In this document: positions 42,009-64,000 of the stretch, in pieces
Position numbering within the stretch: position 1 is the stretch's first letter
How the letters are laid out: each line of letters opens with the position of its first letter
From: Flavobacteriales bacterium
GTDB lineage: Bacteria > Bacteroidota > Bacteroidia > Flavobacteriales_D > UBA2798
Direction of reading: 5' to 3'
Length of the DNA: 64,000 nt
NCBI GenBank assembly: GCA_019694795.1
Contig: JAIBBF010000010.1
Location: 1 to 64,000, forward strand
Program-made: the position numbers and the translations under genes
Notes under the pieces: model-generated
Databases searched by the model: none
What the model saw: only the letters and a program-made list of their open reading frames with translations
What the model was told of the DNA's origin: nothing

Positions 42009-43976
42009 TTGAAAAAGTCGGTCTTTATAATTCTTATTTCTCTTGCGGTTGTTACCGTAATGGGTAAAAAAGTTGAAACGAAATCCTTGTTTCGTTCGCA
42101 TGTAAAAAACGTAATGCATCATAACGTAACTCAAAACCGTGCTCCTCTTGCACAGGATGAGTATTTCATGCATTCATTTAATTGCGGAGGTTGTCATGGA
42201 CCGGATCCCAGTGCCATTGCCATGGTAGACAACAACGGAACCGATGTAAATCTCTATTCCGATTGGCGCACCAGCATGATGGCCCTTTCTGCTATTGATC
42301 CTCTGTGGAGAGCGAAAGTGAGTCAGGAAATCACCGTTAATCCGGGACATGCCGATGAATTGCAAAGCACCTGTACAAAATGCCACGCCCCTACCGGAAG
42401 ATATACCGCCGAATACAAAGGATTACTCCCCTACACCATTGCTGACCTTGAAAATGATTCATTAGGACTTGATGGCGTTTCCTGCAGTGGATGTCACGCT
42501 ATTGATCCCAGCGTTGGCACTACCTTCTCCGGAAATATCCCTTACGATACGGTGCATTATGGTCCCGATGGATTCCGTGCAGAGTATGGTCCATTCGATA
42601 ATCCCGTACAAGGCAATATGCAATTGTATGTTGGAATTAATCCCACATTCAGCACACACGTAAGTGAAGGAAGAATGTGTTCCTCTTGCCATACACTGAT
42701 TACGAATACAGCGGATTTGTCGGGTAATTTAACCGGCGGACAATTCATTGAGCAAGCAACATTCCACGAATGGAAAAACTCGGCCTACCCGGCTTCATTT
42801 ACTACTTGTCAGACCTGCCACATGCCGCAAATCGAAGATCCGGTGATTTTAATGGTGGGTAGTATTGGACTTGCACCTCGTTCTCCATTTAACCTTCACT
42901 ACTTCAACGGTGCCAATTCGTATATGGTGAATCTGATTAAAAACAATAAAAGTGCACTGGGATTGGATTCCATTCCCGATAAAGATTTCGATTCAACCCT
43001 TGCAACGATTGGTCGCCAATTAAAACAAAACACAGCGAAACTCACTTTCACGCAAACACCTTATGTTGGTAATGACACATTGTATGTTGACCTGGAAGTA
43101 AGAAACAAAGCAGGACATAAATTCCCCAGCGGATATCCATCACGACGTGCATTTGTGCAATTGGTTGTTACCGATGCTGCGAATGGAGATACGCTCTTTA
43201 AATCGGGAGTGGTAGATAATACCGGCGAAATTGTAAACAATACCGGTCCATATCAAAATCACTATACGATGATCAACAGCGAAATGCAAACGCAGATCTA
43301 CGAAATGATTATGGGTGATGTGAATGGAAATAAAACCACCGTATTGGAACGTGCCGCTCAACCTTTAAAAGATAATCGTCTCCCACCTTTTGGTTTTAGC
43401 ACATCACATCAAAGTTATGATACAACAAAAATCATTGGCGGCGCATTGAATGATCCGGATTTCAATTGGAATGGCGGCACAGAAGGAACCGGTAAGGATG
43501 TGGTTCATTATCACATTCCACTGGGAGGATTTTCAGGCAATGTAAATGTCACCGCAAAAATTTTATACCAAACCATTAATCCCGGTTGGTTAAGCGAAAT
43601 GTTTGCACTAAATACAGCCCCCATCGATGCATTCCGAAACATGTATCAGAATTCGGATGTTAGTCCGATTGTGGTAGATAGTATTGCTATTGGAGGAATA
43701 AGTTTTTATACCGGACTCAATCCTTCATTGAGGAGCCAGCTAAAAATTTATCCGAATCCATCCCGAGATGGTCTTGTGATGATAAGTAGTTCTTCGGTAG
43801 AAATCCAAGAAATCGAACTTTATGATTTGAGTGGAAAAAAGCTGACAATCAACTCTATTGATTATTTCCAAAGCATCAAAATGCTTCGATTACCTGCTTA
43901 TTCAGGAATTTTCATTCTGAGAATACGGACCGAAAAGGGCTGGATCAGCGAAAAAATTATCCGAATCACCGAGTGA
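42009..43976 (+). CDS. Secreted pentaheme c-type cytochrome with T9SS sorting domain
   Basis: The 655-residue protein has a signal peptide and five CxxCH heme motifs: CGGCH 59-63, CTKCH 122-126, CSGCH 159-163, CSSCH 224-228 and CQTCH 267-271. Their spread resembles the cytochrome c554 family. A beta-rich region (about 340-560, with AGHKFPSGYPSRRAF) follows, and a type A T9SS sorting domain begins at about 577 (LKIYPNPSRDGL). A multiheme protein exported over the outer membrane could carry electrons outside the cell or act as a reductase or hydroxylamine/nitrite-type enzyme. The start is a TTG at 42009; the nearby ATG at 42002 is in another frame. Confidence 0.88.
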   Translation: MKKSVFIILISLAVVTVMGKKVETKSLFRSHVKNVMHHNVTQNRAPLAQDEYFMHSFNCGGCHGPDPSAIAMVDNNGTDVNLYSDWRTSMMALSAIDPLWRAKVSQEITVNPGHADELQSTCTKCHAPTGRYTAEYKGLLPYTIADLENDSLGLDGVSCSGCHAIDPSVGTTFSGNIPYDTVHYGPDGFRAEYGPFDNPVQGNMQLYVGINPTFSTHVSEGRMCSSCHTLITNTADLSGNLTGGQFIEQATFHEWKNSAYPASFTTCQTCHMPQIEDPVILMVGSIGLAPRSPFNLHYFNGANSYMVNLIKNNKSALGLDSIPDKDFDSTLATIGRQLKQNTAKLTFTQTPYVGNDTLYVDLEVRNKAGHKFPSGYPSRRAFVQLVVTDAANGDTLFKSGVVDNTGEIVNNTGPYQNHYTMINSEMQTQIYEMIMGDVNGNKTTVLERAAQPLKDNRLPPFGFSTSHQSYDTTKIIGGALNDPDFNWNGGTEGTGKDVVHYHIPLGGFSGNVNVTAKILYQTINPGWLSEMFALNTAPIDAFRNMYQNSDVSPIVVDSIAIGGISFYTGLNPSLRSQLKIYPNPSRDGLVMISSSSVEIQEIELYDLSGKKLTINSIDYFQSIKMLRLPAYSGIFILRIRTEKGWISEKIIRITE

Positions 43977-44072
43977 TTTTTTCCCTTTTATGATTGGTAG
44001 GTGCCCCATATTTATGTAAATTGAGGGCTCAATCAAACAAACACATTTCTAATTACACCAAAAACTTTAAGC

Positions 44073-46940
44073 ATGAAGAAAAGTTTACTTACGTGTTTTG
44101 GTATTGGAGGATTGATGATTTCTGCAAATGCGCAATTAGCATTTACAGATGCATCTGCACGTCTTTCCAATGGCCTTAACAGTGGTTGTCCAATTACCGT
44201 TGTGGATTGGAACAATGACGGAATGGACGATATCGTTCGTCTTGATCAGGGTTATATTCTTGTAATCGATGAGCAACGTCCGGGTCAGAATTTTGTAACC
44301 CACAATTTCGGAGCAGTTGGAAGCGGTTCCGGTTGGGCATGGGGTATGGCAGTTGCCGATTTCGACAATAACGGTTATAAAGACGTTGTTGCGGGTGGTT
44401 ACTCCACTTCCTATCCTCTTCGTGTTTTAATGATGAATGCGAATGGTACTTCAGTAACCGTTCAGAATTTAAGTCCGGGAAATTTCTTTGTGCAGAACAT
44501 CACCCTGGGTGATTTTGACAATGATGGTTCTACCGACATTTTTTCGTGTGATGACAATGCTCCGGCGCATATTTTCCTGAACAACGGATCCGGAACATTT
44601 AGTGCATCCACCATCATCAATTTCGATATTACACCTGGTCAAACCTCCGGTACATCGAATGATGATTCCGGAAACTATGGTTCAGTTTATACCGATTTCG
44701 ACAACGACGGTGATCTTGATTTATACATTGCAAAATGTCGCCAGGCCGTAACTGGTCCGGGTGCAACCAGCGATCCACGCCGTATCAATATCATGTTCCG
44801 TAACAACGGAGATGGTACCTATACCGAAATGGCAACTTCTGCAAACATTGCAGTAGGATGGCAAAGTTGGACCGCTTGTTTTGGTGATGTGGACAATGAC
44901 AATGATTTCGATTTAGTTCTTACGAATCACGATCATGAAAGTCAACTCTACATCAATGACGGTTCTGGTGTATATACTGAAAATACAACTTCAGGAATCA
45001 CTACATCAGGTATGACTCCAATTGAAACTTTGTTTGCGGATTTCGATAACGATACTTACATCGACTTATTAATTGGTGGTTCCAGCAACTTTAAGTTTTT
45101 CCATAACAATGGAGATTTAACCTTTTCGGAAGTAACCAATCTTTTCGGAAGCAGCATTATTTATGCACCTGCAAATGGAGATTTAAATCATGATGGATTT
45201 ATGGACTTAGCGGTTTCATATGCTAACATCTATACCTCTCCTTCTTCTACCGACGACAAAATCTGGTTTAACAATAAAAACTCCAATCATTTTGTAGTTG
45301 TAGATTTAAAAGGTACCACATCTAATATCGACGCTATTGGTGCACGTGTTTCCATTTATGGCGCATGGGGTGTTCAAACACGCGAAGTTCGTGCAGGAGA
45401 ATCTTACGGTACTCAAAACAGCGGATTCGCTCATTTTGGTTTAGGTTCTGCAACCAGCATTGATTCAATTGTTATCGACTGGCCGACTTCAGGATCACAA
45501 ACCATTTACGATCCGGCTCCTGATCAGTTTATTTCTGTAATTGAAAACGATTGCGTATCACCTGTGGCTGCATCCATTACTTCCAGCAATGGATCGTATG
45601 CATTCTGTACCGGACAATCCGTTACCTTATCTGCACCTGCAGGATATACTTACTTGTGGTCGAACGGAGCAACTACTCAATCGATCGTAGTTAATGCAAC
45701 CGGTGAATTTAATGTATTGGTTTCTGCAGCAGGAAACAACTGCGGATCTTTATCTCCTACAGTTTCTGTAACTCAAAATCCGGATGAAACACCAAGCGTT
45801 TCTGCGAATGGTCCAACCGAATTTTGCTATGGAGAATCAGTGGTATTAAGCGGAAGCTCTCACCCGAACGGTTATAGCTGGTCGAACGGTGAAACCACCC
45901 AATCCATTACCGTAACTGATGCCGGAACTTATTCGATGACAGTTCAAGGTGCTTGTGGAAACTTCACATCCACTCCGATTACTGTATCAGTAAATGCAGC
46001 TACTGCTCCAACAACTTCCGATGTAAATATTCCTGTTCCCGGAACGGCTAACCTTACTGCTACCGGTACTACCATTTCATGGTACGATGCAGCAAGCGGA
46101 GGAAATTTAGTTGGTACTGGTAATAACTGGACCACTCCATTCATCAACACTACTACAACTTATTATGCAGAAGATGTTGCCACCTTTACAGGAGGAACTG
46201 CTACAGGTGGTAAACCATATGTAACAGGAGCAAATGTGTACAGCGGAAATACAACTAATGCAAAAATGTATTTCGATGTAACTGAAGCTTGCACGTTAAA
46301 CACTGTGAAAGTGTATACTGATATCGCAGGAACTCGTTTAATTCAACTTTACAGCTCAGGCGGAACATTACTTAATTCTGCTTCAGTGAACATCCCTGTT
46401 GACTCCAGCGATATCACGTTAAATTTCGCTTTAACTCCTGGTACTGGATATTATCTTACAACTGATGCAATCACCAACCAAGCTATTCCCGGATGGGGAA
46501 ATCCTGGTCCACGTTTAAAACGTAACTCAGGCGACGTTGCTTATCCTTATGCTGTTGGTAGCTCGATTTCAATTACGGGTAACAACCAGGGTACAACCTT
46601 GTATTACTACTTCTACGATTGGCATATCACTTTACCTGACTTTGATTGTCCTGGTCCACGCTCTTCTGCCACTGTAACGGTAGGTGCTGTTGGAATTGGT
46701 GAACTTTCGGAAAATGGTTTCAATGTATATCCAAATCCGGCCAAAGACATGCTTTACATTTCTTCTTCCAACGGAAACTATTCTGTAGAAATGTATGATG
46801 TAACAGGACGTGTTGTTTATACAAAAACTACAACAAGCGGTAATTCTCAGATCGACGTGAACGAAATGGTACCTGGTGTATATTTCATTCGTCTCGAAAA
46901 TGCTTCGGGTAAATCTATCCGTAAAATTATCGTTGAATAA
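44073..46940 (+). CDS. Secreted FG-GAP/UnbV repeat protein with Ig-like modules and T9SS domain
   Basis: The 955-residue protein has a signal peptide (after SANAQ, residue 21) and at least six FG-GAP/VCBS calcium-binding repeats with the DxDNDGxxD pattern (DFDNNGYKD, DFDNDGSTD, DFDNDGDLD and others, about 45-370). An ASPIC/UnbV domain (about 405-490) and two 'CxGxSVxLS ... W SNG x TTQSI' Ig-like modules (about 510-650) follow. The C-terminus is a T9SS sorting domain (VYPNPAKDMLYIS ... GVYFIRLEN). It is probably a calcium-stabilised surface adhesin or binding protein. Ligand unknown. Confidence 0.88.
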   Translation: MKKSLLTCFGIGGLMISANAQLAFTDASARLSNGLNSGCPITVVDWNNDGMDDIVRLDQGYILVIDEQRPGQNFVTHNFGAVGSGSGWAWGMAVADFDNNGYKDVVAGGYSTSYPLRVLMMNANGTSVTVQNLSPGNFFVQNITLGDFDNDGSTDIFSCDDNAPAHIFLNNGSGTFSASTIINFDITPGQTSGTSNDDSGNYGSVYTDFDNDGDLDLYIAKCRQAVTGPGATSDPRRINIMFRNNGDGTYTEMATSANIAVGWQSWTACFGDVDNDNDFDLVLTNHDHESQLYINDGSGVYTENTTSGITTSGMTPIETLFADFDNDTYIDLLIGGSSNFKFFHNNGDLTFSEVTNLFGSSIIYAPANGDLNHDGFMDLAVSYANIYTSPSSTDDKIWFNNKNSNHFVVVDLKGTTSNIDAIGARVSIYGAWGVQTREVRAGESYGTQNSGFAHFGLGSATSIDSIVIDWPTSGSQTIYDPAPDQFISVIENDCVSPVAASITSSNGSYAFCTGQSVTLSAPAGYTYLWSNGATTQSIVVNATGEFNVLVSAAGNNCGSLSPTVSVTQNPDETPSVSANGPTEFCYGESVVLSGSSHPNGYSWSNGETTQSITVTDAGTYSMTVQGACGNFTSTPITVSVNAATAPTTSDVNIPVPGTANLTATGTTISWYDAASGGNLVGTGNNWTTPFINTTTTYYAEDVATFTGGTATGGKPYVTGANVYSGNTTNAKMYFDVTEACTLNTVKVYTDIAGTRLIQLYSSGGTLLNSASVNIPVDSSDITLNFALTPGTGYYLTTDAITNQAIPGWGNPGPRLKRNSGDVAYPYAVGSSISITGNNQGTTLYYYFYDWHITLPDFDCPGPRSSATVTVGAVGIGELSENGFNVYPNPAKDMLYISSSNGNYSVEMYDVTGRVVYTKTTTSGNSQIDVNEMVPGVYFIRLENASGKSIRKIIVE

Positions 46941-50256: not shown

Positions 50257-50301
50257 CAAGATTCGCTGAATTGTTCAGATTGATGTATTTTGGAGGCCGA
50301 A

Positions 50302-51240
50302 ATGATGAATCAGGAACGAATTCTTATTGCCCCTTTAAATTGGGGTTTAGGTCATGCCAGTCGCTGCGTGCCGCTTATCGACCGTTTCCTGAACGAAGGT
50401 CACCATCTATTAATCGCCGGATACGGAGATGCCGGGGAATATTTAAAAAAAAGGTACCCTCAACTTGAATACATCCATTTTCCGGGAATGGAAATCAATT
50501 ATGCGAATAAGCGATGGATGAAATTGAAAATGCTTTATCAATTTCCGAAATTGATCAGAAGCATTTCAAAAGAACATATCCAGTTAAAAAGCATCATAGA
50601 AAAACACAAAATCACGAAAGTGATTTCCGATAACCGCTTCGGGTTGTACAATAAAAATGTGCATTGTGTTTTTATCACCCATCAGGTTTTTATCAAAACC
50701 GGATTATTCGAAAAATTAATTCATAAAATAAATTCCTCTTATATCAGGCGATACAACGAATGCTGGATTCCGGATGTTGAAACGGAACCTTCATTATCGG
50801 GAGAGCTATCTCATGGAAACACACTTCCTGAAAACTGTAAATATATTGGTCCACTCTCCCGTTTTTCCGGAGTAACCTTACCTCCTGCAGAAGCAACGCT
50901 GGATGTAGTCATTGTAATATCCGGACCTGAACCAAGCAGAACAAGGTTTGAAATGCAAATGATTGAACGGTTTAAAAACACCGGTAAAAAAATTGCACTG
51001 ATCCGCGGCACTTGTGCTCCTTCTACCCTGATTTTTCCTTCTGAATTTGTAACTGTGGTAGATTTAGCTATGGATGATGAATTATTAATGCTTTATGCAA
51101 AATCGAAACACATTATCTGTCGCTCGGGTTATTCCACCATTATGGATTTGCATGCCTTAAATCTAACTGCAGAATACATTGCAACGCCGGGTCAGCCCGA
51201 ACAGGAATACCTGGCAAAACTCCATTCCAAACACAACTAA
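50302..51240 (+). CDS. MurG-like/GT-B family glycosyltransferase
   Basis: The 312-residue protein begins ERILIAPLNWGLGHASRCVPLIDRFLNEGH, the N-terminal nucleotide-sugar fold seen in a Bacteroidetes branch of MurG/MJ1255-like GT-B glycosyltransferases. Its C-terminal domain has KHIICRSGYSTIMDLHAL, equivalent to the donor-binding SRxGxxTxxEL of MurG, and PGQPEQEYLAKLH. The acceptor is unknown. It starts at the ATG at 50302 or the next codon at 50305. It is divergent from trmB and ends overlapping the converging lipoprotein gene by four bases. Confidence 0.82.
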   Translation: MMNQERILIAPLNWGLGHASRCVPLIDRFLNEGHHLLIAGYGDAGEYLKKRYPQLEYIHFPGMEINYANKRWMKLKMLYQFPKLIRSISKEHIQLKSIIEKHKITKVISDNRFGLYNKNVHCVFITHQVFIKTGLFEKLIHKINSSYIRRYNECWIPDVETEPSLSGELSHGNTLPENCKYIGPLSRFSGVTLPPAEATLDVVIVISGPEPSRTRFEMQMIERFKNTGKKIALIRGTCAPSTLIFPSEFVTVVDLAMDDELLMLYAKSKHIICRSGYSTIMDLHALNLTAEYIATPGQPEQEYLAKLHSKHN

Positions 51241-53900: not shown

Positions 53901-54947
53901 TCATTTAGCGCGTTCCAGCGTAAATGCAAATGTGGTTCCTACCCCTTCCGTGCTTCTCACGTTCACCGTTTGGTGATGAGCCTCAATAATATGCTTTACA
54001 ATGGCAAGACCAAGTCCAGACCCCCCTTGATTGCGGGCTCGGCTTTTATCTACACGGTAAAAACGTTCAAAAATCCGGTTTAAATGTTGTTTGGCTATAC
54101 CGGGACCATTATCCGCCACTTCAATTAAAATATTCTCATCCATATCGAAAAAACGAATCGATGTTTTTCCGCCTTCTTTACCGTAATTAACGGAATTCAC
54201 CAATAGATTCGTTAAAACCTGTGCAATCCGGTTTTTATCGCAATTGACGTAAATCGGTTTTTCGTATTCTTTATTGAAATTTAAAACGATGCCTTTGTCC
54301 TTTGCCTTCATCTCCAGCGAATCCATTACTTCTTTGGCTAAATCGACAATGTTGATTTTTCGTTTATCCAATTCCAGTCTGCCAGATTCCAACTGTGTAA
54401 TTGTATCGAGATCCTCAATGATATGGGTTATTCGATCAACCCCATTTGCTGCACGCTGAAGAAAGTTGCGGTTAATGGAGGGATCATCCAATCCGCCATC
54501 CAGCAAGGTGAGGATATAACCCTGGATACTGAATATGGGTGTTTTTAATTCGTGCGCAAGATTACCAAGAAATTCTCTTCTGAAATTTTCCTGTTCTTTT
54601 AGTTTTTCAATTTGTTGGTCCTTATCCTTAGCCCACTCAATTACTTCATCATTTACATCTCCGATCATATCGGGAGAAGACTGAATTTTTTCTTTCGTCT
54701 CTTTATTTAATTTTTGATTGTAAATAGTTTTATAAATCACTTTTACACGAGCGTAAATAAAACGATCTACTAAATAAAAGACAACCAAAAAGGAAATAAC
54801 AACCGAAACAGAAGCCGTAACCAGCGGAAAAAATAAATTCCATTTTCCACTAACGGCAAAAGAAGAAAATAGAACAGAGAAAAAAACAATGCCACCCGTG
54901 ATGAGGGAAGCAATCAATGCTATACCACGGGGCGTTGTACTATTCAT
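53901..54947 (-). CDS. PhoR-like sensor histidine kinase
   Basis: The 348-residue kinase has two membrane helices near the N-terminus (about 10-30 and 38-62) with almost no periplasmic loop, a HAMP-like linker, the phospho-acceptor box FLGNLAHELKTPIFSIQGY, and HATPase N, G1 and G2 boxes (NLLVNSVNYG, VADNGPGI, GGSGLGLAIVKHI). The tiny periplasmic loop suggests sensing through a membrane partner, as PhoR does with the Pst/PhoU complex, and not through a ligand. It overlaps the response-regulator stop by one base, giving a classic two-component operon. A PiT phosphate transporter and Pho-box-like sites nearby support a phosphate role. Confidence 0.88.
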   Translation of the reverse strand: MNSTTPRGIALIASLITGGIVFFSVLFSSFAVSGKWNLFFPLVTASVSVVISFLVVFYLVDRFIYARVKVIYKTIYNQKLNKETKEKIQSSPDMIGDVNDEVIEWAKDKDQQIEKLKEQENFRREFLGNLAHELKTPIFSIQGYILTLLDGGLDDPSINRNFLQRAANGVDRITHIIEDLDTITQLESGRLELDKRKINIVDLAKEVMDSLEMKAKDKGIVLNFNKEYEKPIYVNCDKNRIAQVLTNLLVNSVNYGKEGGKTSIRFFDMDENILIEVADNGPGIAKQHLNRIFERFYRVDKSRARNQGGSGLGLAIVKHIIEAHHQTVNVRSTEGVGTTFAFTLERAK

Positions 54948-55630
54948 TAATTATCGAGTTTGTAACCGACCCCTTTAACGGTTTTGATTAAATCCTCACC
55001 TAATTTTTCGCGAAGTTTACGAATGTGAACATCAATAGTGCGGTCTCCCACTACAATTTCATTTCCCCACACATCATTCATGATGGACTCTCTGGTAAAT
55101 ACTTTTCCGGGTTTAGAAAGTAAAAGTGCAAGTAATTCGAATTCTTTTTTGGGTAAGGAAAGTTCTTCTCCGTCTTTATAAACGATATAACGTTCCCTGT
55201 CAATTGAAATCCCTGCCACCTGTTGCGGTGTTGCAGTTTCGGCAACTGAACCTCGGCGTAATAATGCTTTTACCCGGCTAACAAGTACTCTTGGTTTTAT
55301 TGGCTTGGTAATGTAATCGTCCGCTCCACTTTCAAAACCCGCGATTTGCGAATAATCTTCACCACGTGCAGTAAGAAATGCGATGATGGTGTTTTTAAAA
55401 TCATCCATTTCACGCAGACTCATACATGCCTCAACACCGTCCATTTCCGGCATCATTACGTCCAATAATATTAATTCGGGTTTGTATTTTTTTGCTGCTT
55501 CAATAGCTTCACGCCCATTCCCTGCGGTATATACCTCATACCCCTCCTTCTCGAGATTGTATTTTACCATCTCAAGAATATCTGCTTCGTCATCAACTAA
55601 CAGAATTCGATTTGTAACTGAATTTGACAT
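54947..55630 (-). CDS. PhoB-like OmpR-family response regulator
   Basis: The 227-residue regulator has a complete receiver: acidic pair D13/D14 in LLVDDEAD, phospho-acceptor D57 in LLDVMMPEMDG, T87 and K109 (ITKP). A winged-helix DNA-binding domain ends RTIDVHIRKLREKLGEDLIKTVKGVGYKL. OmpR-family regulators bind tandem direct repeats with about 11-bp period. Such repeats (TTAA type) precede this gene and three other promoters of the locus. It is the first gene of the regulator-kinase operon and is likely autoregulated. Confidence 0.93.
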   Translation of the reverse strand: MSNSVTNRILLVDDEADILEMVKYNLEKEGYEVYTAGNGREAIEAAKKYKPELILLDVMMPEMDGVEACMSLREMDDFKNTIIAFLTARGEDYSQIAGFESGADDYITKPIKPRVLVSRVKALLRRGSVAETATPQQVAGISIDRERYIVYKDGEELSLPKKEFELLALLLSKPGKVFTRESIMNDVWGNEIVVGDRTIDVHIRKLREKLGEDLIKTVKGVGYKLDN

Positions 55631-55641
55631 TGTTTTTTTTA

Positions 55642-55699
55642 CAAAGATACCCCTCGAAAAGGGTATTTATTGTTAACACATCATTAATAATCATTTAAA
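55642..55699 (-). promoter_or_regulatory. Promoter of the PhoB/PhoR-like operon with three 11-bp TTAA repeats
   Basis: On the minus strand TTAAA, TTAAT and TTAAC begin at 55698, 55687 and 55676, two exact 11-bp steps. A weak fourth unit (TACCC) begins at 55665. An exact -7 element TATCTTTG starts at 55649, 16 bp past that weak unit, and the start codon of the regulator is at 55630. Confidence 0.7.
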
Positions 55700-55787
55700 A
55701 TTACGAAAATATCCGGAATAGAAAAGAGCATTTTCAAGCCATTAGAGGCCCTTTCTTAAGGAAATGTAACGTGTTTCGGCTTTTCAA

Positions 55788-55843
55788 TTAATATTCAGAT
55801 AACCTCGCGCTAATGAATGGGTAAGAATGGTGTTTGATCTTTG
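55788..55843 (+). promoter_or_regulatory. TonB-receptor promoter with four 11-bp TAA repeats and -7 element
   Basis: TTAAT, ATAAC, CTAAT and GTAAG begin at 55788, 55799, 55810 and 55821, three exact 11-bp steps. The last unit begins 15 bp before GATCTTTG (55836-55843), a 7-of-8 match to TAnnTTTG. This replaces the -33 region, as PhoB boxes replace the -35 region in E. coli. The ATG is 18 bases further on. Confidence 0.7.
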
Positions 55844-55861
55844 CATCGTTAAAATACAACC

Positions 55862-58717
55862 ATGAAACAAATTTCAAATTATCTCCTGCTAATGATTTTC
55901 CTCTGTACTGGTAGTTTTGCCCTTGCGCAAACCGGTATCAAAGGAATTGTGAAAGATAAGTTAACTGGAGAGACACTCATCGGAGCGAATGTTAAGGTAG
56001 AAAAGGTATCGGGAAAAGGAGCCTCCACCGGATTAGATGGCGATTTTCAGATTTTATTGAATCCGGGAACTTACAAAGTAACTGCGTCTTATATCTCTTA
56101 CAAAGACAAAACCATCGAAGTAACCGTTACACAGGGAGCACTTACAGAACTGGTATTTGCCATGGAAACGGAATCCAGCGTAATTGATGAGGTGAGTATT
56201 GAAGTAACGCGCATTACCAATACGGAACAAGCGGTTATCAATGAAATTAAAAATGAGGACCAGGTAGTTAGCGCTATCGGGGCACAGGAAATTCAAAAAA
56301 CATCCATGCGTGATGCCGCCGAAGTAGCACGAAGAATTCCGGGTGTTACCGTAGTGGATAACCGATTTGTGATTGTGCGCGGATTAACCGAACGATACAA
56401 TGCGGTGATGCTCAATAATGCATTAGCACCTTCGGTTGAAACCGACGCGAAATCCTTTTCATTTGATTTGGTTCCGAGTCAGGTCATCGACCGCTTTCTC
56501 ATTTACAAATCACCCTCTGCCGATCTTCCGGGTGAATTTGCCGGTGGAGCAATAAAAATTTACACCAAAAATTTTCCGGAAAACAATTCGATTTATGGTG
56601 GGTACTCCTTATCATACAGACCTGGAACTACTTTCGATGAATTCAAAAGTAACGGCAGCTCCAAAGGTGAATGGTTAGGATTCGGAAAAAAAGGAAGAGA
56701 TCTTCCTTCCAGCTTTCCCGAAAATGTTCGTGACATTACAGACCCTACACAATTACAAAGTATTGGTCAATCCCTCAATAACGATTGGTCACTGCAAAAC
56801 AAATCGGCCATGCCCGATCAACGTTTCAATCTTGGATTCGACCGGATTTGGACCGACAGCATCACAAAACGAAAAATCGGAATGGTAACCGCCATTAATT
56901 ATACCAATTCAAATCTGCATTTCATTTCGAATCGTTATGATTATAACACCTTCGATGAAATCACAAAAACGAGCGACACCATTTTCGGATATCACGATAC
57001 TATTTATCAAAAACAATATCGCTTTGGTGCTATTACCAACTGGGGATATAAAAAAGGAAACACCACCATCGATTTCAGAAATCTGTTCAACCAAATGGCC
57101 TTTAATGAAACCACATTAAGAGGCGGTGAAAATCACGAAGAAGGTAACGACAGAAAAGAATATGCCTATCGTTTTAATCAACGTTCCATTTTATCATCTC
57201 AGTTAACCGGTAACCACATTTTTAAAGAAGATGCCAATGGAAATGCAGTGGATGTTCTGGATTGGACCCTCGGTTTTTCCATGGCCAGAAGAAGTGATCC
57301 GGATTGGAGAAGGGTACGTTACACCCGCGATATCGGAACGCAAAATCCGTGGCAGGCATACATTCCATTTTCTGCACAACCATTTTATATGGGACGTTTA
57401 TACCTCAACATGAATGAAAACATCATGATGGGTGCAGCCAACTATGAGCACACGTTTATTTCATTCGATAAAGACGGAGTAATTAAAAAATTCCAGCCGA
57501 AAATTAAAGGTGGATTTTATGTAGAAAATAAAGCCCGCGATTTTTCTGTTCGCAATATTGGTTATGCAACGTCGAATTTCATGAATTTTAATTATTCGAT
57601 TCCTTACCAATCCATCGATAGTTTATTGCAACCTGCCAATATTGATCCGGTAACAGGATTAAAAATTGATGAAGACACCAAACTTTCCGACTCATACCAT
57701 GCAGAAAACAAACTTCGTTCATTCTACCTCATGGGAACCTTGCCTTGGGAACGATTCAATTTAGTAGCCGGCGTAAGAGCTGAAGACAATACGCAAATCT
57801 TAAATACAGGTACAATTACCAATCAACCATTGGATACTTCGTATCATACATTCCGGATTTTACCTTCCATCAACATGGCCTATCATTTAAAAAAGGACAC
57901 CATGTTACTTCGTTTGGGATACGGAAGAACATTGAATCGTCCGGAATTCCGTGAATTGGCACCACTCACTTTCTACGATTTCGTTTTTAATGCGATTTAT
58001 TCAGGTAATCCCGAATTACAAACACCTTCTATCGATAATATCGATTTACGTTGGGAATTGTATCCACATGCAGGCGAAATGATTTCGGCTGGTGTGTTCT
58101 ATAAATATTTTAAAAATCCGATTGAATTGTATTTCCAACCCGGAGTAGGATCCGGAGGAACACGGTCATTTACATTCGGAAATGCATTATCAGCTACATC
58201 CTACGGTGGAGAAATTGATATCCGTAAATCACTTCAGGATACAAAAATTGGATTCATCGAAGATCTTACCATCGTAGCCAATGCATCTTACATTTTTAGT
58301 AAAATTGAATTGTCGGACGGACAAGCCAACACGGGATTAAATGCATCACGTCCGATGATGGGTCAGTCGCCCTACATCCTTAACGGAGGATTGTATTACC
58401 AGAATGACAGTCTTGGATTAAGCATCAGCTTAATTTATAACCGCATTGGACAACGCGTTGTAATTGTTGGTGTACCCGGAATTCCTGAAGTATATGAAAT
58501 GCCTAGAAACCTCATGGATTTAACGGTTAGCAAGGACCTGGGAAAATATGTTACGCTTCGTTTCAGCATTCAGGACATCTTCAATAATAGTACGATGTTA
58601 TTGCAAGATGCCAATGGCGATGGAAAACTTGACCGCGCCAACGATCAGAAAATGCAGGAATTTAAACGCGGAAGTTATTTCACGTTCGGTGCAAGCTTCA
58701 GAATCAGTAAAGAATAA
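55862..58717 (+). CDS. TonB-dependent outer membrane receptor with CarboxypepD_reg domain
   Basis: The 951-residue receptor has a signal peptide (after FALAQ, residue 22) and a CarboxypepD_reg-like beta-sandwich (about 24-105, GIKGIVKDKLTGETLIGANVKVEK). The plug domain follows (ITNTEQAVINEIKNEDQVVSAIGAQEIQKTSMRDAAEVARRIPGVTVVDNRFVIVRGLTERYNAVMLNN is its diagnostic region, about 118-186), then a 22-strand barrel to the C-terminus (FTFGASFRISKE). It imports a ligand with TonB energy. No SusD gene is adjacent; the next gene instead encodes a secreted beta-helix protein with a matching promoter, so the two probably form a pair. Its promoter carries PhoB-type repeats. Confidence 0.93.
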   Translation: MKQISNYLLLMIFLCTGSFALAQTGIKGIVKDKLTGETLIGANVKVEKVSGKGASTGLDGDFQILLNPGTYKVTASYISYKDKTIEVTVTQGALTELVFAMETESSVIDEVSIEVTRITNTEQAVINEIKNEDQVVSAIGAQEIQKTSMRDAAEVARRIPGVTVVDNRFVIVRGLTERYNAVMLNNALAPSVETDAKSFSFDLVPSQVIDRFLIYKSPSADLPGEFAGGAIKIYTKNFPENNSIYGGYSLSYRPGTTFDEFKSNGSSKGEWLGFGKKGRDLPSSFPENVRDITDPTQLQSIGQSLNNDWSLQNKSAMPDQRFNLGFDRIWTDSITKRKIGMVTAINYTNSNLHFISNRYDYNTFDEITKTSDTIFGYHDTIYQKQYRFGAITNWGYKKGNTTIDFRNLFNQMAFNETTLRGGENHEEGNDRKEYAYRFNQRSILSSQLTGNHIFKEDANGNAVDVLDWTLGFSMARRSDPDWRRVRYTRDIGTQNPWQAYIPFSAQPFYMGRLYLNMNENIMMGAANYEHTFISFDKDGVIKKFQPKIKGGFYVENKARDFSVRNIGYATSNFMNFNYSIPYQSIDSLLQPANIDPVTGLKIDEDTKLSDSYHAENKLRSFYLMGTLPWERFNLVAGVRAEDNTQILNTGTITNQPLDTSYHTFRILPSINMAYHLKKDTMLLRLGYGRTLNRPEFRELAPLTFYDFVFNAIYSGNPELQTPSIDNIDLRWELYPHAGEMISAGVFYKYFKNPIELYFQPGVGSGGTRSFTFGNALSATSYGGEIDIRKSLQDTKIGFIEDLTIVANASYIFSKIELSDGQANTGLNASRPMMGQSPYILNGGLYYQNDSLGLSISLIYNRIGQRVVIVGVPGIPEVYEMPRNLMDLTVSKDLGKYVTLRFSIQDIFNNSTMLLQDANGDGKLDRANDQKMQEFKRGSYFTFGASFRISKE

Positions 58718-58750
58718 CATTCGTGTTAATAAAACTAAACCCGAATTAAC

Positions 58751-58777
58751 AAAGGAGTGCATCAAGCACTCCTTTTT
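58751..58777 (+). terminator. Terminator after the TonB receptor gene
   Basis: A perfect 10-bp stem (58751-58760 with 58766-58775, AAAGGAGTGC/GCACTCCTTT) with a 5-base loop runs into T residues. Confidence 0.92.
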
Positions 58778-58810
58778 AGTAACAATACACTCGTCATATC
58801 GTCAGATTCC

Positions 58811-58855
58811 TTAACACAGCTGTAAGGAAGAGTTAAAGTTGCTACTCTACTTTTG
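58811..58855 (+). promoter_or_regulatory. Promoter of the secreted beta-helix gene with three 11-bp TAA repeats
   Basis: TTAAC, GTAAG and TTAAA begin at 58811, 58822 and 58833, two exact 11-bp steps. The last unit begins 15 bp before TACTTTTG (58848-58855), an exact -7 element. The distance is the same as in the TonB receptor promoter. Confidence 0.7.
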
Positions 58856-58877
58856 CTTCGAACAAAAAACAAAAACA

Positions 58878-61430
58878 ATGAAAAAATTAGTACTCAGTTT
58901 TGCGCTTGCACTCGGCTTAATGAAAGCGGCCGATGCGCAAATCGTAGTATCAGGTAACATTACAACGAATACCACCTGGACTAACGACAACATCTACATC
59001 CTTTCGGGGTTTGTATATGTAAAGGCCAATGCCACTTTAACCATTGAGCCGGGAACCATTATTAAAGGTGACTTTGCAACGAAAGGCGCTTTAATTGTTG
59101 AACGCGATGCAAAAATTTATGCAGCCGGAACACCGGAGCAACCAATCGTGTTTACTTCACAAAAAGCACCAGGACAACGTTCGTATGGTGACTGGGGTGG
59201 ATTAATTCTTTGCGGAAAAGCAAGCGTTAACCAACCTGCAAATCCAGGCGGATCTCCTGCTACATTACAAGGTGAAGCAGTTGTTGAAGGTGGAGTTGGA
59301 ACCGTATATGGCGGTGGAACTACACCAGACGACAACGACAGTTCCGGAGTATTGCGTTATGTACGTTTAGAATTTGGAGGAATTCCTTTCCAACCAAACA
59401 GCGAGATCAACGGTCTTACACTTTGTGGTGTAGGAAGAAGAACGCAGGTTGAATACATTCAAATTTCCTACGCTGGTGATGATGCTGTTGAGTGTTTCGG
59501 TGGAACCGTTCAATTAAAACACATCATTGCATACAGAAACTGGGACGATGATTTGGATACCGACTTTGGTTACAAAGGATTGATTCAACACGTTCTTGTA
59601 ATCAGAGACCCTGCTATTGCTGACCAATCCGGATCTAACGGATGGGAGTCGGATAATGATGCTTCTGGTACAACAAACACACCGATTACACAACCTATCT
59701 ATTCTAACGTAACATTGGTTGGTCCTTATGCCTTTAACACTACCATTAACTCTAACTACAAAAGAGCACTTCACTTAAGAAGAAATACGCGTACCAATGT
59801 TTTCAATTCAGTAATTATGGGTTACCCAACAGGATTATTGATTGAAAGTTCTTCTACTCAAGCTAACGCCACCAATGGTGATCTTCAGTTTCAAAACAAT
59901 GTATTGTGTCAGATGAACGATACATTAGCTACTACAACAGCAGCGAATCCAAACAATGTTAATGGTGCATTCAATATCAATACATGGTTTAACACTGCAG
60001 GATTTAATAACCAAATAATCAATTCGATCAGCTCGTTGGGATATACCAATATTGATATGAACAATCCTGATATGCGTCTTACCGCAGGTTCTTCATTAAA
60101 TTCTGGTGCAAGCTTTTCAAACGCCGCATTAAATGATCCTTTCTTCGACCAGGTAAACTATCTTGGGGCATTTGGTTCTGAAGACTGGACAAAATGTTGG
60201 GCTGAATGGGATCCGCAAAATGAACCTTACAATGCAACCATCGATAATTCAGTAGCTGCAACCATTACTCCAAGCGGAAGCACAACCTTCTGTCAAGGTG
60301 GATCAGTTGATCTTTCTGGTACAGCTATTACCAATGCAAGCTACGATTGGTCGAACGGAGATGTAACTTCAACCATCACTGTTACTACCAGCGGAACGTA
60401 TGATGTAACCATTACCAATGAAAAAGGATGTTCTGCTACATCATCACCGGTTACTGTAACAGTAAATGCAAATCCAACTGTATCTATTTCTGCAAATGGA
60501 AACACTTCTTTCTGTACTGGTGGTTCAGTTGATTTAACTGCTAACCAAACTCCGGTTCTTTGGAGCACAGGTGCAACAACACAAACTATTACTGTAAATG
60601 CCAGCGGAACATACTCTGCTACTTATACTAATGGTAATGGTTGTTCTGCAACTTCAAACGATATTACTGTAAACGTATCTGCAACTCCAATCCCAACTAT
60701 TTCTACCAGCGGTTCTACAACCATCTGTTCAGGTGATGTAGTTACATTGAGCGCTTCTGCTTCAGATAGCTACCAATGGAATTTCAATGGTTCACCGATC
60801 TCTGGTGCTACTTCGCAAACTTATGATGCAAATGCTTCAGGTACATATACCGTAACTGTTACCAATGCAAACGCTTGCGATGGTGTTGGTACATCTAATG
60901 CAACTGCAGTATTCGTTAATCCTACTCCAACAGCAGATGCAGCTTATGCGGCATTCGGATTTGTTGTCAACTTCACCAACAACTCACTTGGAGCAACATC
61001 TTACTCATGGGATTTCGGTGACGGTACTTCTTCTACACAAGTGAATCCTTCTCACACATATGCAACAGCAGGTAACTACACTGTAACACTTACAGCAACT
61101 GCAGGAAACTGTACAGATACTTATACCTTTGTTGTAGGAAGTGTTTCTGTAGAGGAAATCAACAAAAATACATTTGGAAACGTCGTTCTCTTCCCGAATC
61201 CTGCCAATCAAATGGCAACCATCGAAGTTGAAATGAATATCGATGCTGACCTGATTCTTGAAGTGATTGATTTAACCGGAAAAGTTGTTTTTGCTGAATC
61301 CCGCAATAACATCTACAGCGGAAAGCAAATCATCAACATCAACACAGCAGAAATGTCAAACGGAATTTACCTGGTAAGCCTTCGCTCAGGTGAAACCCGC
61401 CAAATGGTGAAAATGATTATCAACCACTAA
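58878..61430 (+). CDS. Secreted beta-helix/Ig-like/PKD protein with T9SS sorting domain
   Basis: The 850-residue protein has a signal peptide (after ADAQ, residue 20) and a right-handed beta-helix-like region (about 25-430) with IEPGTIIKGDFATKGALIVERDAKIYAAGTPEQPIVFTS and a DDAVECFGGTVQLKHIIAYRNWDDDLDTDFG segment rich in acidic residues. Three SprB/Ig-like modules with the 'CxGxxVxLS ... W SNG ... GTYxVTVTN' pattern, a PKD domain (FTNNSLGATSYSWDFGDGTSS) and a T9SS domain (LFPNPANQMATIEV) follow. An in-frame TTG at 58839 overlaps the operator and is rejected. Its promoter matches that of the TonB receptor, so it is a likely extracellular partner that captures or processes the ligand. Confidence 0.85.
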   Translation: MKKLVLSFALALGLMKAADAQIVVSGNITTNTTWTNDNIYILSGFVYVKANATLTIEPGTIIKGDFATKGALIVERDAKIYAAGTPEQPIVFTSQKAPGQRSYGDWGGLILCGKASVNQPANPGGSPATLQGEAVVEGGVGTVYGGGTTPDDNDSSGVLRYVRLEFGGIPFQPNSEINGLTLCGVGRRTQVEYIQISYAGDDAVECFGGTVQLKHIIAYRNWDDDLDTDFGYKGLIQHVLVIRDPAIADQSGSNGWESDNDASGTTNTPITQPIYSNVTLVGPYAFNTTINSNYKRALHLRRNTRTNVFNSVIMGYPTGLLIESSSTQANATNGDLQFQNNVLCQMNDTLATTTAANPNNVNGAFNINTWFNTAGFNNQIINSISSLGYTNIDMNNPDMRLTAGSSLNSGASFSNAALNDPFFDQVNYLGAFGSEDWTKCWAEWDPQNEPYNATIDNSVAATITPSGSTTFCQGGSVDLSGTAITNASYDWSNGDVTSTITVTTSGTYDVTITNEKGCSATSSPVTVTVNANPTVSISANGNTSFCTGGSVDLTANQTPVLWSTGATTQTITVNASGTYSATYTNGNGCSATSNDITVNVSATPIPTISTSGSTTICSGDVVTLSASASDSYQWNFNGSPISGATSQTYDANASGTYTVTVTNANACDGVGTSNATAVFVNPTPTADAAYAAFGFVVNFTNNSLGATSYSWDFGDGTSSTQVNPSHTYATAGNYTVTLTATAGNCTDTYTFVVGSVSVEEINKNTFGNVVLFPNPANQMATIEVEMNIDADLILEVIDLTGKVVFAESRNNIYSGKQIININTAEMSNGIYLVSLRSGETRQMVKMIINH

Positions 61431-61450
61431 TCAATAACACTCAACCATAG

Positions 61451-61480
61451 AAAGCCGCTCAGTGATGAGCGGCTTTTTTT
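61451..61480 (+). terminator. Terminator after the beta-helix gene
   Basis: An 11-bp stem (61451-61461 with 61466-61476, AAAGCCGCTCA/TGAGCGGCTTT) with a 4-base loop is followed by a T run. Confidence 0.92.
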
Positions 61481-61495
61481 ATGCAACTTCTAGGT

Positions 61496-61531
61496 AAAAA
61501 GAAAGGGAAGCAAATGCTTCCCTTTCTTTTT
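61496..61531. terminator. Bidirectional terminator between the beta-helix and second regulator genes
   Basis: A 17-bp perfect inverted repeat (61496-61512 with 61515-61531) has A and T tracts at its ends, so it is symmetrical. It lies 15 bases beyond the stop of the minus-strand regulator and insulates both directions. Confidence 0.9.
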
Positions 61532-61546
61532 ATCGTTTACAAAATA

Positions 61547-62224
61547 TTATTGATCAAATTTATATCCTACGCCCTTAATGGTTTTAATTAAATCGCCTCC
61601 GATTTTTTCTCTCAGTTTTTTAACGTGGACATCAATGGTTCTGCTTTTCACTTCATCATCATCACCCCATATTTCCGATTTAATCTCATCGCGAGAAAAC
61701 ACTTTACGTGGGTGCTTATATAACAGGGTTAGGATTTGAAATTCTTTTTTGGGAAGTTCTATTTCATTCTCTCCGCGAATAGCAATGTATCGCTCGAAGT
61801 CAATATGCAATCCGTTTTCAGACTGAGATTGAAACGCTTTCATATTTCCGGAACCTAAGCGACGGAAAATGGATTGAATTTTACTTAACAACAAGCGTTC
61901 GCTTAATGGTTTTGCTAAAAAGTCATCGGCGCCGGAATTGTAGGCTGTGATTTGAAGAAAATTTTCATTTCGTTCACTAAGCATGATGATATAACTTGGT
62001 TTCAGTAAACCAATGTTTCTAAATTCCCTGCACAATTCAATTCCATCTTTATCCGGCAAATCCACTTCACATAAAATTAACGCAGGCAAATGTTTCAATG
62101 CCAGTTCAGCGCCTTTTTGCGACGATAAAGCCAGGTGCACACTGAAATCGTTTTTTTCCAAAAACTCCTTGATATCAGAGGCAAATCCGTAGTTGTGATC
62201 TATGATTAATATGCTACTATTCAC
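61547..62224 (-). CDS. Atypical PhoB-like response regulator, phospho-acceptor Asp replaced by Glu
   Basis: The 225-residue OmpR-family protein has a degenerate receiver. The motif LILLDVMMP of the first regulator reads LILCEVDLP here, so Glu53 replaces the phospho-acceptor Asp. The acidic pair reads IIDHN (Asp9, His10) in place of DD. Ser83 and Lys105 are kept. The DNA-binding domain is nearly the same as that of the 54947 gene over the recognition region (RTIDVHVKKLREKIGGDLIKTIKGVGYKF), so both should read similar sites. No kinase gene adjoins it. I infer a phosphorylation-independent or phospho-mimetic regulator. The start is a GTG at 62224. Confidence 0.9.
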   Translation of the reverse strand: MNSSILIIDHNYGFASDIKEFLEKNDFSVHLALSSQKGAELALKHLPALILCEVDLPDKDGIELCREFRNIGLLKPSYIIMLSERNENFLQITAYNSGADDFLAKPLSERLLLSKIQSIFRRLGSGNMKAFQSQSENGLHIDFERYIAIRGENEIELPKKEFQILTLLYKHPRKVFSRDEIKSEIWGDDDEVKSRTIDVHVKKLREKIGGDLIKTIKGVGYKFDQ

Positions 62225-62241
62225 CTTTTATTTGATTTGCT

Positions 62242-62298
62242 GTAAATTAGCATTGCAGTACAACCTAAGCATTAAGTACATTTTAAGAATGAGTTAAC
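62242..62298 (-). promoter_or_regulatory. Promoter of the second PhoB-like regulator with 11-bp TTAA repeats
   Basis: On the minus strand TTAAC, TTAAA and TTAAT begin at 62297, 62286 and 62275, with a weaker GTTGT at 62264, all 11 bp apart. The last begins 15 bp before TAATTTAC (start 62249), a 6-of-8 -7 element. The outermost unit abuts the ATG of the divergent bestrophin gene. Confidence 0.65.
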
Positions 62299-63227: not shown

Positions 63228-64000
63228 TTAAATCAATTGACGGAACAACAAAAATAATCCACCGGACAATAACATGGTCACCGGCAATGTAAGAATCCAC
63301 GCCATTAAAATTGTTCTGATGGTTTTCGGCTGAAGATTCTTAATACCATTTTGTGCCACCATAGATCCTGCAACACCCGAAGATAAAACGTGTGTAGTAG
63401 AAACCGGTAATCCCATATAAGTACTCAATCCGATAGTAGAGGCTGCTACAATTTCTGCAGAAGCTCCTTGTGCATAACTCATATGCGTTTTACCGATTTT
63501 TTCACCGATGGTAACCACAATACGTTTCCATCCTACCATTGTACCAATACCTAATGAAAATGCAATAATTACCAATACCCAGGTTGGAGCGTAGTCCGTC
63601 ATATTTCTCAAATCCTTCGCGTGGCCCTTTAATTCTTTAGCCACCTTTTCATCTAAGGGCAGTTTACCGTTCTTCACCATTTTCTCAATTTTACGGGTTA
63701 CATAAAGCAACTCACTTCTCAAATGGAAACGGGTATCGGGTGTAATACTTTTTACTGTAGAGGCGTCCTTAATTTGCGATTCCACCTTATCCAGATTCTC
63801 CATGATCTTACCATAGGTTTTACGATCATCCGCTGCGAGATCATCCGGATTAACCGTAATCATAATTTCGCGAATACCTGTAGTGTGTTTTACAAATGAA
63901 GAAGGATCTACCGTGTCATCAATCGCATAATACGCAGGCAGAATACCAATTAAAATCAACATCACTAATCCAACACCTTTTTGACCATCATTCGATCCGT
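63228..64000 (-). CDS. PiT family inorganic phosphate transporter, C-terminal part
   Basis: The frame stays open to the end of the window, so the N-terminal part lies beyond 64000. The first visible residues are GSNDGQKGVGLVMLILIG, a PiT family signature, then a hydrophilic cytosolic loop (about 90 residues), and then membrane helices with MVGWKRIVVTIGEKIGKTHMSYAQGASAEIVAASTIGLSTYMGLPVSTTHVLSSGVAG, the second PiT signature. PiT proteins take up phosphate with H+ or Na+. It ties the locus to phosphate. Its promoter is outside the window, so whether it carries the TTAA repeats cannot be seen. Confidence 0.93.
   Translation of the reverse strand, partial: GSNDGQKGVGLVMLILIGILPAYYAIDDTVDPSSFVKHTTGIREIMITVNPDDLAADDRKTYGKIMENLDKVESQIKDASTVKSITPDTRFHLRSELLYVTRKIEKMVKNGKLPLDEKVAKELKGHAKDLRNMTDYAPTWVLVIIAFSLGIGTMVGWKRIVVTIGEKIGKTHMSYAQGASAEIVAASTIGLSTYMGLPVSTTHVLSSGVAGSMVAQNGIKNLQPKTIRTILMAWILTLPVTMLLSGGLFLLFRQLI

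Follow-up and report, generated by a model that had tools for sequence, protein, structure and literature searches.

The PHO box is known as a kind of operator, and TTAAC-type cores are found in Bacillus, in which the PhoP box has the consensus TT[A/T/C]ACA repeats. Promoters of the Bacteroidota have the consensus −33/−7. In this study, we analyzed a 64,000-nucleotide stretch of a Flavobacteriales bacterium (assembly GCA_019694795.1, contig JAIBBF010000010.1, positions 1 to 64,000; hereafter the window), in which four promoters around the gene of a PhoB-like response regulator carry arrays of 11-bp repeats that most likely constitute a PHO box adapted to the promoter type of the Bacteroidota. 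The E. coli PhoB Pho box consists of 7 + 4 nt units, and the B. subtilis boxes have similar features (PMC4415409). TTAAC-type cores are also known from cyanobacteria, in which the Pho box of SphR is CTTAACCT, composed of 8 bp and a 3-bp linker, with at least three repeats (PMC1906773).

Within the phylum, PhoB of Bacteroides fragilis was shown by gel shift to bind the pstC promoter; the words "consensus" and "motif" do not occur in the available text, and no box sequence was found in it (PMC3547664). In Flavobacterium johnsoniae, the PhoBR cluster (Fjoh_0541-0549) contains PhoR, PhoB, a TonB receptor (pf07715, pf13715), and an IPR011050 lipoprotein in a row, and the log2 changes under depletion of inorganic phosphate (Pi) were 5.42 for a glycosyltransferase, 3.06 for PhoB, 8.02 for the receptor, and 9.91 (FII) and 7.59 for lipoproteins (PMC8115612). 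The window locus resembles this cluster in gene order and families, with a regulator, a kinase, a TonB receptor, a protein like the pectin-lyase-fold-type lipoprotein, and a nearby glycosyltransferase; it differs in having a second regulator and a PiT transporter, neither of which is among the cluster genes described in the available text, where the terms Pho box, motif, and binding site are likewise not used (PMC8115612). Neither a printed PHO-box sequence for the Bacteroidota nor its fixed distance to the −7 element of the phylum was found in the open-licence PubMed Central literature searched.

The initial annotation of the window had proposed a PhoB-type operator of 11-bp tandem units at a fixed distance from the −7 element. 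All of its repeat and −7 coordinates at the four promoters were confirmed by base-by-base reading, as listed below (RR2, second regulator).

55788..55831, + strand: putative PHO-box array of the TonB receptor promoter; four 11-bp units, TTAAT at 55788, ATAAC at 55799, CTAAT at 55810, and GTAAG at 55821
55836..55843, + strand: −7 element GATCTTTG of the TonB receptor promoter, 15 bp past the start of the last unit; fair match
58811..58843, + strand: putative PHO-box array of the beta-helix gene; three units, TTAAC at 58811, GTAAG at 58822, and TTAAA at 58833
58848..58855, + strand: −7 element TACTTTTG of the beta-helix gene; good match
55655..55698, − strand: putative PHO-box array of the phoB-like/kinase operon; TTAAA at 55698, TTAAT at 55687, TTAAC at 55676, and a weak TACCC at 55665
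55642..55649, − strand: −7 element TATCTTTG of the phoB-like operon, 16 bp past the weak fourth unit; good match
62254..62297, − strand: putative PHO-box array of RR2; TTAAC at 62297, TTAAA at 62286, TTAAT at 62275, and a weak GTTGT at 62264
62242..62249, − strand: −7 element TAATTTAC of the RR2 promoter; weak, poor match

The arrays are direct repeats with an 11-nt period and at least two units. Three perfect TTAA units were observed at just two of the four sites, those of the phoB-like operon and RR2; the receptor array consists of NTAAN units, and the beta-helix array has two TTAA units flanking one GTAAG. The TTAA core gives no strand because it is palindromic. A near-match with one mismatch at 52055, at the end of an M43 peptidase gene, was absent among the matches to box plus −7 and was set aside as chance.

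Since TTAA is frequent in the intergenic DNA of a genome with 40% GC and the pattern was chosen after reading, the arrays could be chance A+T-rich repeats. Exact matches to three TTAA spaced by 11 bp occurred at four sites in the 3.45-Mb genome, two of them in this locus, and the backwards control pattern also occurred at four; the other two exact sites lay between converging open reading frames (ORFs) (C2:7315) and ~510 bp before the next ORF (C98:5067). The exact TTAA pattern alone was discarded as evidence because it was no commoner than its control. When box and −7 were scored together, the window gave six register matches at a score of at least 24, each of which fell on one of the four reported sites; the Markov null was 0.44 per 64 kb. 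The weights of this score had been tuned by eye after the promoters had been seen. With a fixed-register matrix derived from relatives, the receptor site scored 35.0 bits, the beta-helix site 12.3, the phoB-like site 8.2, and the RR2 site less than 8, and 1 Mb of Markov sequence gave one match of at least 12 bits, five of at least 8, and none of at least 15. By this matrix the receptor site alone is far above noise, and the other three window sites are close to the noise level, as chance repeats would be. Tests independent of both scores were therefore sought. The main independent support for the arrays is their conservation in relatives.

The search for receptor orthologues covered 60 genomes, of which 59 were from relatives and one was the window's, as well as a genome-contig scan with named records that gave 30 loci. 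Of 60 receptor loci (L005-L064), 53 were used, the other 7 being partial or lacking upstream DNA; 50 of the 53, including the window's own, contained the start together with 120 nt or more of upstream sequence and formed the set for the period test. The best three-unit score summed over these 50 promoters was 1036.7 at period 11, compared with 771.5 to 814.3 at periods 7–10 and 12–16, and the Markov null for the period-11 sum was 768.0 (standard deviation, 12.1; maximum, 799.7; 200 copies). Although the −7 element was not used in choosing the units, 24 of the 50 promoters had TTTG 19 bp past the start of the last unit, with at most 2 at any other offset; this offset corresponds to the 15 bp to TAnnTTTG seen in the window promoters. 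These period and offset results support the 11-bp tandem units and fixed −7 distance of the initial annotation, and the lack of conservation before orthologues by which it could have been overturned did not occur.

By the rule used, 34 of the 49 relatives' receptor promoters (the window's own left out) carried the box and 15 did not. Since the −7 TTTG served as the anchor in choosing these 34, every one of them contains it. The usual −33 TTTG was missing in 33 of the 34, and the array thus held a fixed position relative to the −10-type element, where it replaced the −35. Arrays were in phase with the −7 and extended upstream over 3–8 units by a lenient count in which single gaps were allowed. 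The 34 promoters also showed a directional unit, which reads T/G/A, T, A, A, and C/T, followed mostly by A and T and then by four free bases, with the consensus [T/G/A]TAACATNNNN. This consensus, visible from the relatives only, replaced the reading of the core as a TTAA palindrome. In named records, the box was found in Pontibacter, Parachryseolinea, Ferruginibacter, Limnovirga, Segetibacter, Flaviaesturariibacter, Agriterribacter, and one Prevotellaceae metagenome-assembled genome (MAG). In some relatives, the beta-helix gene was located ahead of the receptor gene, and the box then stood before the beta-helix gene. Among the 15 loci that lacked a receptor box, this was the case in 6 (L021, L027, L031, L032, L054, and L056; 17.9–27.3 bits), and a box preceded the beta-helix gene also in G005 and G023 (L089 and L090; 17.5 and 15.2 bits) and in two Chlorobi-labelled MAGs. 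The box moves with the first gene of the operon. At L009, a site before the receptor gene had been missed by the stricter rule.

The directional unit can be compared with the described boxes. Like the Bacillus PhoP consensus, with which it shares almost the same core, it recurs in tandem, although phylum, promoter type, and targets differ. The likeness to the SphR box includes the TTAAC core, the 11-bp period, at least three head-to-tail units, and control of the regulator's own gene, which is predicted for SphR in two species (PMC1906773). The window unit, by contrast, is [T/G/A]TAACATNNNN and locked to the Bacteroidota −7 (TAnnTTTG), and its targets are a TonB receptor and a secreted beta-helix protein. 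The box shares with that of E. coli PhoB the 11-nt tandem units upstream of a −10-type element and a near-identical recognition helix in the regulator, whereas the core there is CTGTCAT rather than TTAAC and the sigma-factor promoter differs. The "new core" of the initial annotation was consequently abandoned, since TTAAC-type units at 11 bp are published for SphR (PMC1906773) and the core is directional rather than a TTAA palindrome.

A sequence-only model (R1) was built on the 34 relatives' receptor promoters alone, with the window excluded; its E-values come from a shortened calibration. In the window genome, 150 of 1795 first-look candidates were scored with R1 and 150 of 3424 with a reversed control model. 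The R1 match at the receptor promoter ranked first (E 8.3e-5), that at the beta-helix gene second (0.002), and that in the phoB-like intergenic region third (0.039), the last being placed on the + strand because the core is palindromic; 7 of the 14 matches (E up to 10) fell within 12.8 kb at this locus. The reversed control gave nine matches, none on this contig, with a best E of 0.011, and therefore just the receptor and beta-helix matches stand on E-value alone. At E up to 0.01, R1 matched 31 of the 60 relatives' genomes, a count that includes the window's own genome and many that had supplied training sequences.

For the wider phylum, at most 56 candidates per genome were scored under stricter filters with either model. 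At E up to 0.001, R1 matched 31 of 99 genomes (28 of 59 genera), and the reversed control matched none of the same 99; of the 31, G010 had supplied a training sequence and one was the window's own. These genomes gave 55 matches, and the best match of 27 genomes was taken as a new locus. An ORF of at least 80 aa started within 350 bp downstream in 26 of the 27 and was absent in one. In plain counts, the Pfam families of the 26 ORFs were TonB-receptor type in 13 (L148 and L173 without a Plug match), PstS type in 4 (at L154, with its start 336 bp from the box), calcineurin-type metallophosphoesterase in 2, and ABC permease, PhoU_div, and Porin_O_P in one each; 4 had no family. The box is thus located upstream of phosphate-acquisition genes in other genomes, and in the window genome its targets are linked to phosphate by homology only. 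The recurrence of period, spacing, and position in relatives with diverged flanks, together with the 0 of 99 genomes for the reversed control, makes chance repeats hardly credible. Matches were uneven across families, with 9 of 11 genomes in f25 and 0 of 21 in f26. The box in its present form appears to be clade-limited, and f26 may use another core.

The most probable binder is encoded next to the arrays:

54947..55630, − strand: RR1, a PhoB-like response regulator (Response_reg and Trans_reg_C) with an intact DD/D/T/K receiver
53901..54947, − strand: PhoR/PnpS-like histidine kinase (HisKA and HATPase_c), overlapping the end of RR1

RR1 has a PhoB-type DNA-binding domain, a Trans_reg_C winged helix, which aligned with the E. 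coli PhoB chains 3t72, 1qqi, and 1gxp (E about 1e-17); 1gxp and 3t72 are DNA complexes. Its recognition helix is DRTIDVHIRKLREKL, compared with DRTVDVHIRRLRKAL in E. coli PhoB, and few positions differ. By the eye-tuned score, the box was also found before RR1 orthologues in three relatives (G001, G005, and G023). RR1 very likely binds the arrays and activates through them in place of the −33 element.

The arrays might instead be operators of another regulator of the OmpR/PhoB family, of the WalR/VicR or MtrA type, that responds to an envelope or other signal and whose sites the phosphate genes share secondarily. Other OmpR-family regulators bind 11-bp tandem half-sites, and RR1 also scores on the YycF and MtrA models. 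However, the PhoB models score best for RR1, and PstS, PhoU_div, and Porin_O_P genes were among those with upstream sites recovered by the model from receptor promoters. In F. johnsoniae, moreover, Pi depletion induces most of the similar gene cluster (PMC8115612). We therefore consider this alternative unlikely. Phosphate starvation is likely to be the signal in this organism.

Taken together, the arrays are, with high probability, the PHO box of this lineage, to which RR1 would bind under phosphate starvation, in phase with the −7 element, to switch on the local genes. This reading is favored because the repeats, with their phase and spacing, are conserved, because R1 outperformed its control, because phosphate genes lie downstream in other genomes, because the box moves with the first gene of the operon, because the DNA-binding domain of RR1 matches that of E. 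coli PhoB, and because the F. johnsoniae genes are largely induced; PhoB of B. fragilis, which binds the pstC promoter, also speaks for it (PMC3547664). Several results weigh on the other side. RR1 scored below the PhoB equivalog cut-offs (TIGR02154, 229.4 of 296.2 bits; NF053854, 212.8 of 270) and is therefore labelled PhoB-like only, and the kinase scored below those for PhoR (TIGR02966, 232.2 of 334.2) and PnpS (NF046044, 260.4 of 400). Of the 49 relatives' receptor loci, 8 were without a site of at least 12 bits, some of them lacking upstream DNA. In the window genome, the fixed-register matrix places the beta-helix and phoB-like sites close to noise, the R1 match of the phoB-like region is weaker than the best reversed-control match, and the RR2 promoter was not among the 14 R1 matches from the 150 candidates scored. 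The downstream families were tallied as plain counts, and, given the absence of matches in f26, the box in its present form does not extend to the whole phylum. Pi depletion of F. johnsoniae left PhoR (0.76) and OprP (−1.3) uninduced (PMC8115612).

The following mechanism would account for the arrangement. Under phosphate starvation, the kinase (53901-54947) would phosphorylate RR1, which would bind head-to-tail, each 11-bp [T/G/A]TAACATNNNN unit taking a single monomer. With its last unit beginning 15 bp ahead of TAnnTTTG, the array is held in phase with the −7; it would stand in for the missing −33 TTTG, and the bound RR1 would recruit the primary sigma factor. The phoB-phoR operon would in this way activate itself, and the genes of the TonB receptor, the secreted beta-helix protein, and RR2 would be switched on with it. 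The boxes at all four promoters support this local set of regulator-kinase operon, second regulator, receptor, and secreted protein, as the initial annotation had it. Its description as a local regulon fits the window genome, where PstB did not reach its cut-off; in other Bacteroidota, the same box is located before pst genes. A readable PHO box for the Bacteroidota would make it possible to predict from sequence which TonB receptors and secreted proteins serve phosphorus capture. It would also illustrate how a PhoB-type activator fits the unusual −33/−7 promoter, and the compactness of the system would suit tests of activation with that sigma factor.

The second regulator differs from RR1 in its receiver:

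61547..62224, − strand: RR2, second PhoB-like regulator, with the acceptor Asp replaced by Glu and the acid pair DH

RR2 scored below the PhoB cut-offs (TIGR02154, 150.7 bits; NF053854, 136.8), and it lacks the acceptor Asp and acidic pair of a phosphorylatable response regulator. The acceptor was Glu in G000, G001, and G002, with the acid pairs DH, DK, and DN, respectively. The recognition helix is nearly equal to that of RR1 and is kept in G001 and G002. In the RR2 promoters of these two relatives, the TTAA units and TAATTT are kept and the spacers differ, and the −7 is at the same distance (TAATTTAA in G001 and TAATTTCA in G002). By the eye-tuned score, a box preceded the second regulator in five relatives; in G002, a single array precedes RR2 and RR1, which are arranged in tandem, and the stretch separating the two genes had no other site that reached the reporting threshold. 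RR2 is thus a candidate phosphorylation-independent PhoB paralogue inside its own regulon. Because its recognition helix is nearly that of RR1 and the acceptor site holds Glu, RR2 probably binds the same boxes without phosphorylation, which would prolong or strengthen the response.

The same features could mean that RR2 is the main DNA-binding activator, acting without phosphorylation, and that RR1 merely starts its synthesis: the recognition helices are near-equal, the Glu acceptor is shared by G000, G001, and G002, and a box lies in RR2's own promoter. Yet in 20 of 30 genomes, the box-bearing G007 and G012 included, a single protein matched RR2 at E 1e-30 and is presumably the RR1 of that genome. 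RR1 is also the better conserved of the two, with 82% and 69% identity in G001 and G002 compared with 70% and 52% for RR2. We therefore regard this role for RR2 as very improbable, and RR1 remains the preferred activator. A larger scheme may be envisaged, in which the locus is a self-amplifying, Pst-less switch: PhoB would induce an Asp-to-Glu paralogue acting on the same boxes, the response would latch, and boxes adapted to −33/−7 would define a large TonB-receptor/beta-helix regulon across much of the phylum. We offer this only tentatively, as possible rather than probable. The degenerate RR2 would in any case permit a test of whether a bacterium builds a latch by copying a regulator and removing its phosphorylation site.

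In a tree of 12 regulators, RR1 formed a clean group (99/99), and the second regulators of families f1 (83/83) and f4 (100/100) formed no sure joint clade. Their common origin is not claimed because of this and of the long branches. The f4 second regulators (L089 11740-12402, L090 2686-3345, and L091 9661-10239) each have a PHO-box-like array before them. They have kept the Asp and lack the normal acid pair where the receiver is readable (L091 starts too late), possibly a parallel case.

The two other targets and the transporter that adjoins the locus are as follows:

55862..58717, + strand: TonB-dependent receptor (Pfam Plug and CarbopepD_reg_2) with a carboxypeptidase-regulatory-like N-terminus
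58878..61430, + strand: secreted protein with a parallel beta-helix domain (Pfam PKD and Por_Secre_tail, a type A sorting tail of the type IX secretion system [T9SS])
63228..64000, − strand: C-terminal part of a PiT phosphate transporter (PHO4); full gene, G000:C10:63228-64628

The structural model of the secreted protein had a mean predicted local distance difference test (pLDDT) score of 86.5. No PDB match at E 1e-3 or below was obtained, and the weak matches were led by pectate lyase Pel9A (E 1.3e-3; TM score, 0.35–0.39). The family IPR011050 corresponds to the pectin-lyase fold. The pectate-lyase matches of the model would be in keeping with lipoprotein FII, which follows the TonB receptor in F. 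johnsoniae (PMC8115612).

PstB, the one Pst component searched, was absent above the cut-off in the window genome (best, 155.1 versus 343.2 bits), and all 14 control genomes gave a match, 13 of them above the cut-off. PiT seems to be the transporter on which the organism depends for phosphate. The PiT promoter, which had been suggested for inspection, has two units only (C10:64711, E 0.28) and no −7 at the right distance, and we do not claim it. Before a DUF2490 gene (65472-66269, + strand), two good units and TAGATTTG in register were found at G000:C10:65404-65441 (L116), a suggestive and possible further member. In G001, a box with TAGATTCG (L117, G001:C58:45017, − strand) is located directly before a phosphate-selective Porin_O_P gene (43607-44824, − strand) beside PiT; no Porin_O_P ORF was found at the matching place in the window genome. 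A glycosyltransferase gene (Glyco_trans_1_3) is located near the locus at 50290-51240 on the + strand; the Pi-induced glycosyltransferase of F. johnsoniae, listed under lipid remodelling, belongs to another Pfam family, pf04101 (PMC8115612).

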